Shown here: one piece after another, positions 49,229 to 53,946 of the stretch
How positions within the stretch are numbered: position 1 is the first letter of the stretch
Layout: every line of letters starts with the position of its first letter
Source of the DNA: Gamsiella multidivaricata
Taxonomy: Eukaryota > Mortierellomycota > Mortierellomycetes > Mortierellales > Mortierellaceae
Assembly: GCF_025024155.1 (NCBI RefSeq)
Contig: NW_026251742.1
Location: forward strand, 62,001 to 126,000
DNA: 64,000 nucleotides
Reading direction: 5' to 3'
The notes under the pieces: model-generated
Seen by the model: the letters and a program-made list of their open reading frames with translations, nothing else
Databases searched by the model: none
What the model was told of the DNA's origin: nothing
Position numbers and translations under genes: made by a program

Positions 49229-49525
49229 TCATCTCTCTACAATGGACAACTGACGATTTCAGATTCGCAAAGACACATATAGAACTGTATTTGACGAAAT
49301 GACGCATTATAATGAAAATAGTATGTTACAGTGAATAGAAAAGCAAATGAAAAACTACAGTGGCAAAAGGGAAAACGAGCTAGGTCATTAAGAAATAATA
49401 GAAAAAAGTGTGCAACACAGATGTTGCCAACGTGCCATGTGTGTTTCCCTAGTAATGTCGATAAAGCGGTGAAAAAACATGAACTTGCGAGAAAAAGAAT
49501 ACCAAAGGAAAAAAAAAAAAAAAAA

Positions 49526-51170
49526 CTACTTTTTTGAAAAAGCAGCCAATCCTTTGATGCCGTCATTGTCTAGCGTCAATCGACTCGACAACAACGCCTT
49601 CACCAAAAGACCGCGGGCCACATCTCTGCGACCCTGCCGGAATTCTGTCACAATCTCCTGGATCACCAACGGGTGTAGACTGCTAATGTTGTCCTTGATG
49701 GTTCTCGAATGGGGAGCTGGCGGCCGTGGTAGGGGCCCTGTCCTATCATTAGACTGACGACTCAAGGAGAGCTGTCGGATAAAAGATAGGGCCGCCTGCT
49801 GCAGCTGCAGCTCCTGCGGATGACTCGATCGCGCTCCAGTCGAGGTCAAGAAAAGAGTCGAAAAGTTCAGCATCAGCTGCGGCAGGATGGTGGTCAGAAG
49901 AACCATCATCAAGGCCGTGGTGGCCAGCTGCCGAGCCGGTGGTCGCGTCGTCAGAAAAGAGACTGCTGCAGAGGAGGAGAGCGTCAAGGTCATGTTGCGA
50001 CTGTTGTAGCAATATGGCCGACAGCTGGTCTCCATCCAGTTCTGAGCTGCACTCGGATCCGACGAACGGGCTTCCCTGTTCTGATCCCTCTTGCTCATCA
50101 AGGTCTTCATCGTCATCGAATAGACTCGTCGGTGTTTGTTGGGCATTGGAGCCGTGGAGGTTGTGGTGTAAAGGTTTCTCTTGGGTGGAGCCAGCTTCTG
50201 CTGCGGAGAGTTGGTCAAGGCGTCCGTCTTACGGGATCTCTTGTCCTTCTTTGCCAGTACTGCAGACTATCAATAAAACAATCAAGCGAGAGAAAGGTTA
50301 GGACCACAAAAAGTCGATGGATGGATGGATACGAGACCATTGTGGATGTGGTGGAGCACCATGTTGTACCTGGCAAAAGCCGACTCCGGGTTGGTTGTGC
50401 TTTAAGGACTGGGATAGCAGTTGTTGCATCTGTGCGAACTGTGCGGTGAGGGTCTCGAGTCGTTGAGAGAGGGCGAGGTTGTCGCTCTCGACGGTCTTGA
50501 GTCGCTTCAGCAGCTGGGTGTTCTCTTGCTGGAGGTGCTCGTTCGAGGTCTCGATCTCTTCGACGTACTTTCTCTTCTTGTCCCTGGACTCCTGAGCGGC
50601 GGCGCGGTTCCGCAACACGCGCTCACGGGCCTTGGTCTCCTTGTCAGCAGGATCCGTGGATCTCTTCCGGTGGGTGGTGCTTGAGGAAGAGACGGCCTTG
50701 CTCTTGCCTTTGGGCTTGGCAGGGGTCTCTGAGGATGGGCCTGGGCTGGGGCTGAGCAGGGGCGACTCAAGCTTGAGAGCCATGGGACTGATGGAGGGTG
50801 AGCCGGTCCAAGAGGAAGTAGAGGTGGCGGCCAGAGCGATCACACTAGGGTCGGAGAGGAGATCGGTGGCATTGGCGGCACAGTTCTGGTGGAGGGTCGG
50901 GGTGGTTGCATCCAGAAGTTTAGTCAGCATGTCAATGTGCATGGCTTCCGTTGAGGATGAAGAGAATGCCGAGTGGGCGAGGATGGCGGTTGCGGTTGCT
51001 GTCGACGGTGAGGAGGAGGAGGAGGAGGGGGAGGGGGTGGCTGCAGAGGGGGTTGTCGCGGATGCCTCGCTGTCCAGGTCTGCGGTGGACACTTCGCTGT
51101 CAAAGGGAGCGCCAGCTGAAGAGGCATGGGCCATCATGTCTGGCAAGGAGAGAAGCGTTGTCGATAACAT
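49526..51170 (-). CDS. HAC1: HAC1/XBP1-type bZIP factor with IRE1-type intron
   Basis: Exon 1 (50370-51170, 267 residues) has a disordered Ser/Thr N-terminus and a bZIP at about residues 165-245. Its basic region, KARERVLRNRAAAQESRDKK, matches the NRAAAQ signature of fungal Hac1/HacA and XBP1, and a leucine zipper follows (LQQENTQLLKRLKTVESDNL). A spliceosomal intron with a CTAAC branch site (50267-50369) joins exon 2 at 50266. Unspliced, frame 1 runs to 49526 (513 residues in all) and includes a hydrophobic stretch (ALMMVLLTTILPQLMLNFST). If the 59 nt 50204-50262 are removed, frame 2 runs to 49749 (419 residues) and has an acidic domain (LFDDDEDLDEQEG, ELFDSFLDLDWSAIE). By family knowledge, IRE1 removes such an intron under ER stress and the product activates the unfolded-protein response. 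Confidence 0.88.
50204..50262 (-). other. Predicted IRE1-excised (non-spliceosomal) intron
   Basis: Both borders fit CNG|CNG: CTG|CAG at 50263/50262 and CCG|CAG at 50204/50203. Once the ordinary intron is gone, the 5' site sits in a 7-base loop CTGCAGT between the arms TTTTGCCAGT (nine bases from exon 1) and ACTGGCAAAG, ten consecutive pairs with one G-U. The 3' loop CCGCAGC has a weaker stem (TCT/AGA, then CCA/TGG). The length is 59, not a multiple of 3, so excision changes the frame. No GT-AG borders are present. Confidence 0.8.
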
Positions 51171-51259
51171 GACGGCCCGGACAGAGATACGAATTCAAAG
51201 AGGGGTTTATATACAGAGGAGGGAGAGGGGGTATGCAAGGCGACGAGGGCGAGGTGCGA

Positions 51260-51265
51260 TACGTG
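51260..51265. promoter_or_regulatory. UPRE-like TACGTG element
   Basis: TACGTG (the core of yeast UPRE-2) lies about 90 bases upstream of the bZIP ATG. A second ACGTGG sits at 51433-51438. Autoregulation of HAC1/XBP1 through such sites is known elsewhere; here it is inference and short motifs occur by chance. Confidence 0.3.
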
Positions 51266-52254
51266 TCAAGAAGAGAGGAGGCGAAGAGGAGGAGGAGTGT
51301 AGTCGTGGCAAGCGAAGAGAGGTGAAGGGAATAAAAAAAAAAAAAAAGGGAAGGAAAGGGCGGGGTGCTGGTTCTTTTATGGGTAGCCCATTAAGGGGCA
51401 GACACCCAGACCAGCAGCCGCAACATGCTGCAACGTGGCCAATTTGCTGCCAGTCGGCGCTAGATTATTTCCTATTTCCCTATTTTCAGGAAGCGCTCCG
51501 AAGCACACAGAAGCACTGCGGAACACACACCTCTTTCTTGCCAAGAGTCGCCCATCCCTAAAAACCTTATTTTCCTAGAAGCACACAGCACACCGCACAC
51601 AGCCCACTCCCCAACATCACTCTACCTCAACCGCCAATAGTCCATACAGCTGCCGTGCATGAACATGTCACTGCCACAGCCAAACTGGTACCATCCCCGG
51701 GTGCCCTACCCTAATGGGCCACATCTCTGCCCCCCTCGTCTTCTGCTTAATCTGCTTCGCCTGCAATCAAATAACCTACATACATATTGTGCTGACATCA
51801 TTTGCCCACAGCCGCCGCTGCTCCCCCCCCTCCCTCGCTCTCGCCCCCTGTACCACCCAACTACGTGGTCGAGTGCGGACCATCCCCTTCAAGAAAACCC
51901 CTAATAAACAGGCTCTGTATTTTGGGAACATTCCATGCTATCCTTGGGATTCGTTACACTACATAGTCTACATTTAGTATGAAAAAGAGCGATCATTCTG
52001 GGCTGAAGCATTTCATAGAATTAAACACACACACACACACACTTACACACACACTTACACACACACAAAACAAGGAACATTCGCATCGCACATCGCATAC
52101 AAAAGAAAAAAACAAGCCTCAAACAAACACACCACAGAGCAAAATAGTTTTAATGGTATACATTATATTCCAATGCAAAATGCTATGTCTGATGGGCGTT
52201 TCGAATGGTCAATATAGGAGGGGAGGGAGATAGGAGGTTCAATTAGATTAGGTT

Positions 52255-52416: not shown

Positions 52417-53013
52417 TTAGAACGCCATCGCAAGGACCGCGCCTGCGCCGGCCACTGCCAATGCAACCGACTTGCCCACGGAGACCAAAGTAGTCGCACC
52501 ATTCGGATGACCGGCCGTACTGCTACTACCACCGTTGCTCCCATTCACACCCGCAGTCGCAACACTACTACCACCACTACCACCAGCGCCACCAGCAGTC
52601 GTCCCCGCAGCGACCGATCCTCCGGGAGCCGTGACATTGAACCGCCCCGAATACGCGTTGTTCGGCTGGAGAAGCAGCTGCAGCGCATACACACCGGGCT
52701 TCGTATCCGCAGGCACCGTCCAGACCAAGTTCCCGACAGACTTTGTACAATCGATCGTACCAACCTTCTTCACATAGAACGCGTTGTTAATATTGTTCGA
52801 GTCCATAAAGTCGACCTCGGTCGCGTTCGGCGTCGCAGACGTCAGCGTCGACGGCGTCGTGCAGGCCATCGTCCAGGAAAACGTCTGGGTCGATCCCGCA
52901 ACGTACGTGATACCATCACCCACGGGCTGCGTGAACGAGATATGGTTGAGGGGCGCTTGCGCAGAGACGGCAGCAACGGCAATCGCACCCAGGGCAATAA
53001 GCGACTTGATCAT
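52417..53013 (-). CDS. GPI-anchored cell-wall protein, KRE9/KNH1-like
   Basis: An intronless protein of 198 residues. A signal peptide (MIKSLIALGAIAVAAVSAQA) is followed by a beta-sandwich-like domain (ITYVAGSTQTFSWTMACTTP, YVKKVGTIDCTKSVGNLVWT, KPGVYALQLLLQPNNAYSGR) of the type found in the KRE9/KNH1 or Ser-Thr-rich GPI-anchored families. A Gly/Ser/Thr/Ala-rich spacer (about 130-175) leads to a hydrophobic C-terminus (SVALAVAGAGAVLAMAF), as in GPI anchor signals. It should be a wall or plasma-membrane surface protein; an enzyme activity is not expected. A (GT)n tract lies directly upstream of the ATG (53018-53040). Confidence 0.82.
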   Translation of the reverse strand: MIKSLIALGAIAVAAVSAQAPLNHISFTQPVGDGITYVAGSTQTFSWTMACTTPSTLTSATPNATEVDFMDSNNINNAFYVKKVGTIDCTKSVGNLVWTVPADTKPGVYALQLLLQPNNAYSGRFNVTAPGGSVAAGTTAGGAGGSGGSSVATAGVNGSNGGSSSTAGHPNGATTLVSVGKSVALAVAGAGAVLAMAF

Positions 53014-53946
53014 CTTTGTGTGTGTGTGTGTGTGTGTGTAAGTGTGTGGCTATGTAAAGAGGGAGTGCGTGGTGGAAGCCAGGATAAGCAAAGGCAGGTG
53101 AAGAAAAGTCCTTTTTTTGTATTTTCGCAATGAGGAAGAATGAAGAATGAAAAAGAAGAGAGAAAGCGAAAAGATAAAGAAGGACGAAAGAACGCGACTT
53201 GAAGAAGCCCTTATGAAGCTATGGCTCCCATCGTGTCCGTACCGTACCCAGATATAGGCCACCGTCATTATGGGGCAAAGAAATATTAGTACGGGGCCAT
53301 GTCCTGCACAAGGAGAAGCCCGATTACTTTAAAAAAAAAGAGGGAGGGGGGGGGGGGGGGAAGGAAAGGAGGCGATATAAATTATCGTCTCCTGGGGCCG
53401 CCAATTCTTTTGATCTGTATAACCAAGCTCAAGGAGATACAAGGACTCTATACCAAAGGGTCGGGCTGCCTATCATGCTACTACTGCATGAGCATGCCTG
53501 CAAGGAGAACCAGAGACACCACCCATCATGAGAAAATAACTAATGCGCTCGAGGACGAGGCTAGCGCTTTTGCAATGACTGATGAACATGAGCCGCCTTG
53601 AAAATGGCAATGCGGACCCCCTCTGGATGGTACAGAGTCCAGCAACCCCTTGGGCATTGGATTCCGGCAAGAAGTCCCAAGATATCACGGAGGTGCTGTT
53701 GCACGCAGAAGGTGGGGTAGTGAAGGGGGAGAGGAGAGGAGAAGCATGGTCTTTTGCAAGTACTCCGCGGTCGCAGCCGCCAACTCCTTTTCACGATGAC
53801 TCTACCGAACGTGTTATCCTGACTCTTTTTTTGGCCTAACAGGTCCAATGGTCCTTGTTATACTATAACCAGATGACACGCCTTGTTTTTTTTTTTTATT
53901 ATTATTATGTAACAAACAAAGTAACTGGATCTTGCTACCCATGCTT
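53014..53946. other. Spacer between minus-strand genes
   Basis: Promoter of the GPI-protein gene (GT repeat, then a GA-rich strand) plus a poly(G) run at 53347-53360. ORFs at 53473-53848 on both strands show no family features. No gene is called. Confidence 0.45.

Follow-up and report, generated by a model that had tools for sequence, protein, structure and literature searches.

In metazoan XBP1, the sites at which IRE1 cuts lie in twin CNGCNGN loops, and the intron removed between them is 26 nt long. The introns of the HAC1/XBP1 family were reportedly surveyed by Hooks and Griffiths-Jones in 2011. Two hairpins at the intron boundaries are described as a common feature of these introns, whose lengths in CTG-Ser1 yeasts run from 19 to 848 nt (PMC6222058, in the portion available); the corresponding intron measures 20 nt in A. 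fumigatus and 252 nt in S. cerevisiae (PMC6222058, PMC3154848). Cryptococcus HXL1 combines an IRE1 intron of 56 nt with a conventional intron of 55 nt that lies upstream of the bZIP, and in the available part of that report its authors describe HXL1 as lacking homology to Hac1/Xbp1 (PMC3154848).

All homologues are stated to possess two overlapping frames, and the same paper cites a case for the vertebrate unspliced product being functional and suggests a functional unspliced product for A. fumigatus (excerpts of PMC7580959). Conservation of both XBP1 frames is credited to Nekrutenko and He 2006 in two of the papers available in part (PMC7580959, PMC2329644). In XBP1, the unspliced frame encodes a hydrophobic stretch that follows the bZIP, and XBP1u mRNA reaches the ER by means of this stretch of the nascent chain, unlike yeast HAC1 mRNA, which contains a cis-acting localisation element made of RNA and not of peptide (PMC9217131, available text).

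The window analyzed here, a stretch of 64,000 nt of DNA from Gamsiella multidivaricata, carries on its minus strand a HAC1/XBP1-type bZIP gene of a Mortierellaceae fungus. The gene shares with XBP1 the bZIP, the frame switch, the twin CNGCNGN loops, and an unspliced (U) frame with a hydrophobic stretch behind the bZIP. It differs from XBP1 in a predicted IRE1 intron of 59 nt rather than 26 nt, in a U tail of 244 amino acids with a predicted C-terminal helical module, and in a 5' hairpin that spans a spliceosomal junction. With fungal HAC1/hacA it has in common an IRE1-target bZIP, an NRAAAQ-type basic region, and a Trl1-type ligase encoded in the genome, whereas its intron has neither the length found in A. 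fumigatus nor that found in S. cerevisiae. A medium-length IRE1 intron accompanied by a conventional one is shared with HXL1, but the conventional intron of HXL1 does not lie against the hairpin. In this reading, IRE1 splicing at the locus would be of a known kind, and the conserved hydrophobic U frame together with the spliceosomally split hairpin would be a variant of it. The open-licence literature, from which most subscription journals are missing, yielded neither the window gene, nor its intron, nor an XBP1u-like tail in a fungus.

The gene and its predicted IRE1 sites

The gene extends from an ATG at 51170 to the stop of the U frame (49526..51170; this and all window features below are on the minus strand) and encodes a U protein of 513 amino acids once its spliceosomal intron is removed. 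Exon 1 (50370..51170, 267 codons) contributes the N-terminal region and the bZIP (about 50642-50484, NRAAAQESRDKKRKY), which matched the Pfam families bZIP_2 (E 6.6e-10) and bZIP_1 (E 6.8e-9). The basic region is one that we take to be of the Hac1/XBP1 type (NRAAAQ), in agreement with the original prediction. A protein from G. multidivaricata, P0004, is 99-100% identical to the window gene, and no second copy of the bZIP was found in a search of the genome, where the next match showed 34% identity. Its sequence marks the gene as HAC1/XBP1 of a fungus of the Mortierellaceae; it would serve as the UPR master regulator of Gamsiella, with splicing presumably induced by stress.

Exon 1 is followed by a spliceosomal intron of 103 nt (50267..50369, GTACAA...TGATAG, GT-AG), and exon 2 begins at 50266. 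In two genomic-type read-throughs from relatives, P0023 and P0037, an intron begins at this very codon, and translation with the intron kept would yield a product of 290 amino acids. The CTGCAG in the IRE1 loop (50260-50266) constitutes a second AG acceptor located 7 nt past the ordinary one. A Lobosporangium gene model, P0020, reads as though this second acceptor had been used, and its use in vivo would break the hairpin.

In the pre-mRNA, this intron parts both arms of the 5' IRE1 hairpin. The portion within exon 2 (50249..50266) includes the loop CTGCAGT (50265-50259) and the right arm (50258-50249), and the left arm is made of 50378-50370 plus 50266, such that nine of its ten bases are the end of exon 1. 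Because one arm lies in each exon, with 103 nt between them in the pre-mRNA, the hairpin can close only after spliceosomal splicing. The 10-bp stem had been described as perfect and as forming upon intron removal; the stem and its split arms are present, but one of the ten pairs is U-G and the other nine are Watson-Crick, so the adjective was slightly generous. Among 20,000 length-matched first-order Markov mRNAs, 0.03% contained a CNGCNGN loop closed by 10 bp or more, and the next best such loop in the real mRNA sits on a 4-bp stem. When a 311-nt segment that retained the intron was folded, the inner pairs of the stem had probabilities of 0.20-0.43; with the intron removed, the four inner pairs reached 0.92-0.97. 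For the six outer pairs, the predicted probability in the mRNA was no more than 0.02-0.35, since a helix between the exons competes for the same left-arm bases.

The 3' IRE1 site (50197..50209) consists of the loop CCGCAGC (50206-50200) on a 3-bp TCT/AGA stem, and it lies 59 nt beyond CTGCAGT, as had been claimed. With both loops cut after the third base, the 5' cut falls between 50263 and 50262 (CTG|CAG) and the 3' cut between 50204 and 50203 (CCG|CAG), delimiting a predicted intron of 59 nt (50204..50262, CAG...CCG). The 5' loop has a stem of up to 10 bp. The 3' hairpin, with a contiguous stem of 3 bp, is weak, and in the MFE structure part of its loop bases is taken by the exon-exon helix. 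This helix pairs the last 40 nt before the 5' cut with the first 40 nt after the 3' cut over 15 bp, three of them G-U (left strand GGAGTCGGCTTTTGC, 50373..50387; right strand GCAGAAGCTGGCTCC, 50187..50201), a length reached in none of 5,000 Markov pairs of 40-mers. We liken it to the rearrangement of XBP1 RNA that is described, in the text available, as ejecting the intron and holding the exons (PMC6592678). A structure with the twin stem-loop on a 9-bp extended stem was calculated at -36.1 kcal/mol, about 3 kcal/mol from the MFE of -39.2 kcal/mol. A search of Rfam at a lax threshold with the genomic DNA of 49400-51300, in which the hairpin is split, returned seven matches, all below the gathering score and none overlapping the IRE1 sites.

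The same genome encodes IRE1, as judged from an RNase domain (PF06479, E 5.5e-21) and from a best PDB match to the IRE1 chain 2rio_A (E 2.3e-71); by eye, a signal peptide, lumenal part, membrane span, kinase, and RNase could be recognized on one locus. A ligase of the Trl1 type (PF09511) is present, as is an RNA ligase of the RtcB type (G000:C169:8919-9719, L010) in a gene that is apparently broken by introns. The best PDB matches of the latter were 4dwr (E 2.4e-19) and PH1602 (E 2.8e-19), both archaeal, which ranked above the RtcB-homolog chains (E 1.7e-15). Trl1 is given as the joining enzyme in fungi (PMC6592678, in part).

The predicted spliced junction and implied intron length among relatives

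Removal of the 59 nt leads into the spliced (S) frame, which provides an acidic tail of 150 amino acids with a net charge of -28 and ends at a TAA at 49751-49749 (49749..50203). This shift into an acidic frame had been foreseen for cutting at the two sites, and the tail is presumably an activation domain. Without the removal, 244 residues with a net charge of +23 follow. The S tail was matched in few relatives (four matches, at the protein level), P0002 among them with 66% identity over the whole searched stretch, and the U frame is conserved in 34 rows.

One relative displays the predicted spliced junction. P0002, an M. alpina-like sequence on a contig of 1,697 nt in which the spliceosomal intron is absent, reads GFCQ-SAAEAGST without interruption. 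Its source code is 'lgn', which we take to denote the Logan assemblies. Five rows carry this code: P0023 and P0037 run into the spliceosomal intron, and P0002, P0039, and P0040 are without it. The two read-throughs indicate that this source does not itself remove introns, and P0002 should therefore derive from processed RNA; we infer that it is cDNA-derived, as it looks to be. A single conflict-free DNA of 24 codons can encode both the S frame of P0002 and the U frame of an M. alpina protein, either P0016 or P0018; this DNA starts with CAGCAGAAGCTGGCTCCAC, and its first 19 bases equal those of the window. Conflicts with P0002 arose for the closely related P0047 at base 62 and for P0015, from another species, at base 29. 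P0037 together with the Podila U proteins P0038, P0039, and P0041 gave a 5' site identical to that of the window over 23 bases. Two overlapping CAG candidates exist for the cut, and the first is favored because the SAAE of P0002 arises from that cut only.

Protein searches, the first of which scored just the 7,992 candidates sharing most words, yielded 55 relatives, 49 of them Mortierellaceae by name or likeness. The pattern of unspliced reading fits 41 of these proteins; the other 14 comprise P0002 as the S form, four proteins from Mucorales, one each from Calcarisporiella and Coemansia, and seven gene models or genomic read-throughs in which the junction is disrupted. The IRE1 intron implied by the 41 U-type rows is 59 nt in 28, 53 nt in five, 62 nt in three, 47 nt in three, 44 nt in one, and 41 nt in one, so 59 nt is the family norm. 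Directly before the 3' cut, a residue for which a CNG codon is possible occupies 40 of the 41 rows (P in 28, R in seven, Q in four, L in one), the last row, P0027, having M. Scans of viral_contigs and genome_contigs produced no match to DNA of the relatives, whose bases are therefore deduced from proteins. The length of the intron had been put forward as unusual. This point of interest was dropped, given the 56 nt of Cryptococcus HXL1 and the range known from CTG-Ser1 yeasts.

It might be proposed that no IRE1 splicing takes place, the hairpin being there by chance and the acidic frame being reached through ordinary alternative splicing. The gene models P0001, P0034, and P0036 do arrive at the S frame by other joins, apparently by way of invented introns, and the CTGCAG sequence can act as an AG acceptor in its own right. 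Ahead of the 3' cut, the window has TCT as its serine codon, and the codon could be TCN or AGY in M. alpina, where an AGY codon, holding an AG, would leave a spliceosomal route open. In the window, however, TC rather than AG stands ahead of TCCGCAG, and therefore no AG acceptor could yield the junction of P0002; moreover, coincidence would have to account for the loop, the stem, and the exon-exon helix as well as for the CNG rule that holds at the 3' cut. We judge ordinary alternative splicing very improbable and consider it highly probable, from the sequence evidence, that the window HAC1/XBP1 mRNA is spliced by IRE1 at CTG|CAG and CCG|CAG. The identity of the gene, the IRE1-type twin sites, and the frame switch of the original prediction all hold, and the protein of a relative contains the junction that it implied.

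The Mortierellaceae gene models examined either represent the unspliced form or are hybrids in which the exons are joined differently. P0004, the entry for Gamsiella, belongs to the unspliced kind, and among the entries examined for the species there is no annotation of the active factor.

In Mucorales (Mucor, Parasitella, and Mycotypha), FCDSA... is found at the equivalent position. A junction resembling the one in P0002 occurs in the M. lusitanicus model P0051, which reads CDSAAEVAKHD, and P0050 and P0052 read CDSARIAKKESEVAKHD, a comparison which suggests the same IRE1 splice in Mucorales. The one apparent U form, P0049 from Mycotypha, read as protein, ends 24 residues after FCD and has no long U tail.

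Conservation of the unspliced frame

The U tail continues for 244 residues behind the cut codon, making it longer than the S tail, and its last 73 residues lie beyond the S stop. Its conservation was assessed in an alignment of 34 rows, comprising the window and 33 of the 55 proteins; the 22 left out were broken or hybrid models, the S form, distant relatives, and near-duplicates. The most hydrophobic 19 residues of the protein fall within the same U stretch in all 34 rows (KD19 1.27-1.86). In the window, this stretch is a U-frame hydrophobic helix at U residues 378-409 (49841..49936) that overlaps the S frame. A 27-residue U segment contains no charge in 30 rows and one in four, and between 59 and 127 residues come after the hydrophobic stretch. 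Beyond the S stop lies a conserved U-only block of 40 residues (U residues 456-495, 49583..49702), with a mean identity to the window of 75%, and at least 37 residues are present from the block start onward in 32 of the 34 rows. AlphaFold2 predicts a helical hairpin here, with block pLDDT means of 79-94; the model of P0004 as a whole (mean pLDDT 60, pTM 0.32) is trustworthy for the bZIP and the C-terminal helices only. No Pfam family was matched by the last 92 residues of the U frame, and Foldseek of the P0004 model in PDB gave three matches, the best of which had a meaningless E value of 7.0. The unspliced frame had been treated as a mere precursor; its tail is nevertheless conserved across the family.

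The tail of P0053, from Calcarisporiella thermophila, contains a hydrophobic ATLTLTFSILSWIWTG stretch that resembles the Mortierellaceae one by eye. In a profile comparison of the family with P0053 by hhalign, the alignment was confined to the bZIP and the segment that directly follows it; it gave no confirmation of the likeness, which was not counted.

The two frames are offset in the overlap such that the wobble base of an S codon serves as the middle base of a U codon. At eight S-wobble sites that are degenerate in the S frame of the window (U 391, 394, 395, 398-400, 405, and 406), T, the base to which the stretch owes its hydrophobicity, is found in 33 of 33 relatives, and many other S-wobble sites in the hydrophobic stretch vary. 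Since free wobble bases should drift, the retention of T at degenerate sites points to selection on the U reading. Under the hydrophobic stretch, 16 of 33 S codons end in T. The corresponding figures are 15 of 91 for the preceding part of the S tail (p 7e-4) and 33 of 267 for exon 1 (p 4e-6), where C occupies 126 of the 267 third positions. Four gene pieces pooled gave 417 of 1,932 codons ending in T, which is above the exon 1 rate.

Several other measurements are in keeping with real IRE1 splicing but a U tail that arises only passively, from the S frame and the long 3' region. When the S tail was synonymously recoded in 20,000 trials, the U frame was open in 27%, comparable hydrophobicity was reached in 4%, and both were obtained in 1%. 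The basic charge of the U frame would be a by-product of the acidic S frame, because the recoded mean was +17 and the observed value +13, and U-frame substitutions in the overlap were no more conservative than random missense. The T at all eight degenerate wobble positions, the identity and confident helical prediction of the block past the S stop, and the persistence of that block in nearly every aligned row are what such a passive tail would leave unexplained, and we regard it as quite unlikely. Over the whole overlap, S-wobble positions were less conserved than S second positions (0.745 versus 0.808), and substitutions in the whole U-only region were not conservative (BLOSUM62 -0.82 versus -0.67 expected). 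With these tests against it, the case that the U frame is under selection is carried by the hydrophobic core and by the block beyond the S stop.

Conservation of the U frame could also reflect an RNA element, such as a structure or a localisation signal, instead of a protein. The RNA of both stretches gives a somewhat better fold than shuffled sequence (z -2.43 for the hydrophobic stretch and -1.84 for the second stretch), and yeast HAC1, unlike XBP1, is described as relying on a cis-acting localisation element (PMC9217131, in part). Substitutions in the 40-residue U-only block, however, were more conservative than random missense (BLOSUM62 -0.18 versus -0.39), by a small margin and in the block rather than the whole U-only region, and upstream of LPQL the rows appear by eye to keep hydrophobicity over fixed sequence. 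An RNA element as the cause is, in our assessment, unlikely. Selection on protein remains the preferred reading of the U frame: both tails appear to be kept by selection, and the message appears to be dual-coding over 150 codons.

Possible delivery of the uncut message and sequence upstream of the gene

In the order of events that we propose, the spliceosomal intron of 103 nt would leave first, after which the 5' IRE1 hairpin could close. Upon ER stress, IRE1 would cut at CTG|CAG and CCG|CAG, the 15-bp exon-exon helix would hold the ends while the 59 nt leave, and a ligase, probably of the Trl1 type, would join the exon ends. Translation would thereby shift from the U tail (244 amino acids, basic, with one hydrophobic helix and a C-terminal helical module) to the S tail (150 amino acids, acidic). 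The hydrophobic helix makes the U tail a candidate for membrane targeting. Its likeliest role would be to guide the uncut mRNA, during translation, to IRE1 at the ER membrane in the manner of animal XBP1u, and we place such delivery just short of an even chance. The unspliced frame is accordingly read here as a putative fungal counterpart of XBP1u. A broader proposal, which we put forward more tentatively still, is that Mortierellaceae HAC1 is a dual-coding gene of the XBP1u kind, in which a membrane-seeking U protein carries its own mRNA to IRE1 and a cross-junction hairpin restricts cutting to the nuclear-spliced message.

The uncut message is described as meeting IRE1 in different ways, through an RNA element in yeast and through a nascent hydrophobic peptide in animals (PMC9217131, available text). 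The order in which these two delivery modes appeared becomes testable with a fungal lineage whose unspliced frame is hydrophobic and conserved. If the proposal is true, co-translational delivery either is not an animal invention or arose twice.

Upstream of the gene, a motif scan that used the ERSE-II consensus located ATTGGCCACG (51434..51443), an ERSE-II-like site that lacks the spacer and lies 264 bp upstream of the ATG. This may possibly, if weakly, represent a UPR element through which the gene regulates itself. TGACGTG, one of six patterns tried, lies no more than 1.5 kb upstream of the match in four of seven ER-type genes and in none of six other HSP70 genes, and it is absent upstream of the window HAC1/XBP1 gene and of IRE1. 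As a UPR promoter motif it was set aside, the genes being too few and the comparison post hoc. The neighboring gene (52417-53049) is secreted-protein-like (MIKSLIALGAIAVAAVSA...) and appears fused to the bZIP in the Entomortierella models P0001 and P0006, which suggests an error of modelling combined with conserved gene order.
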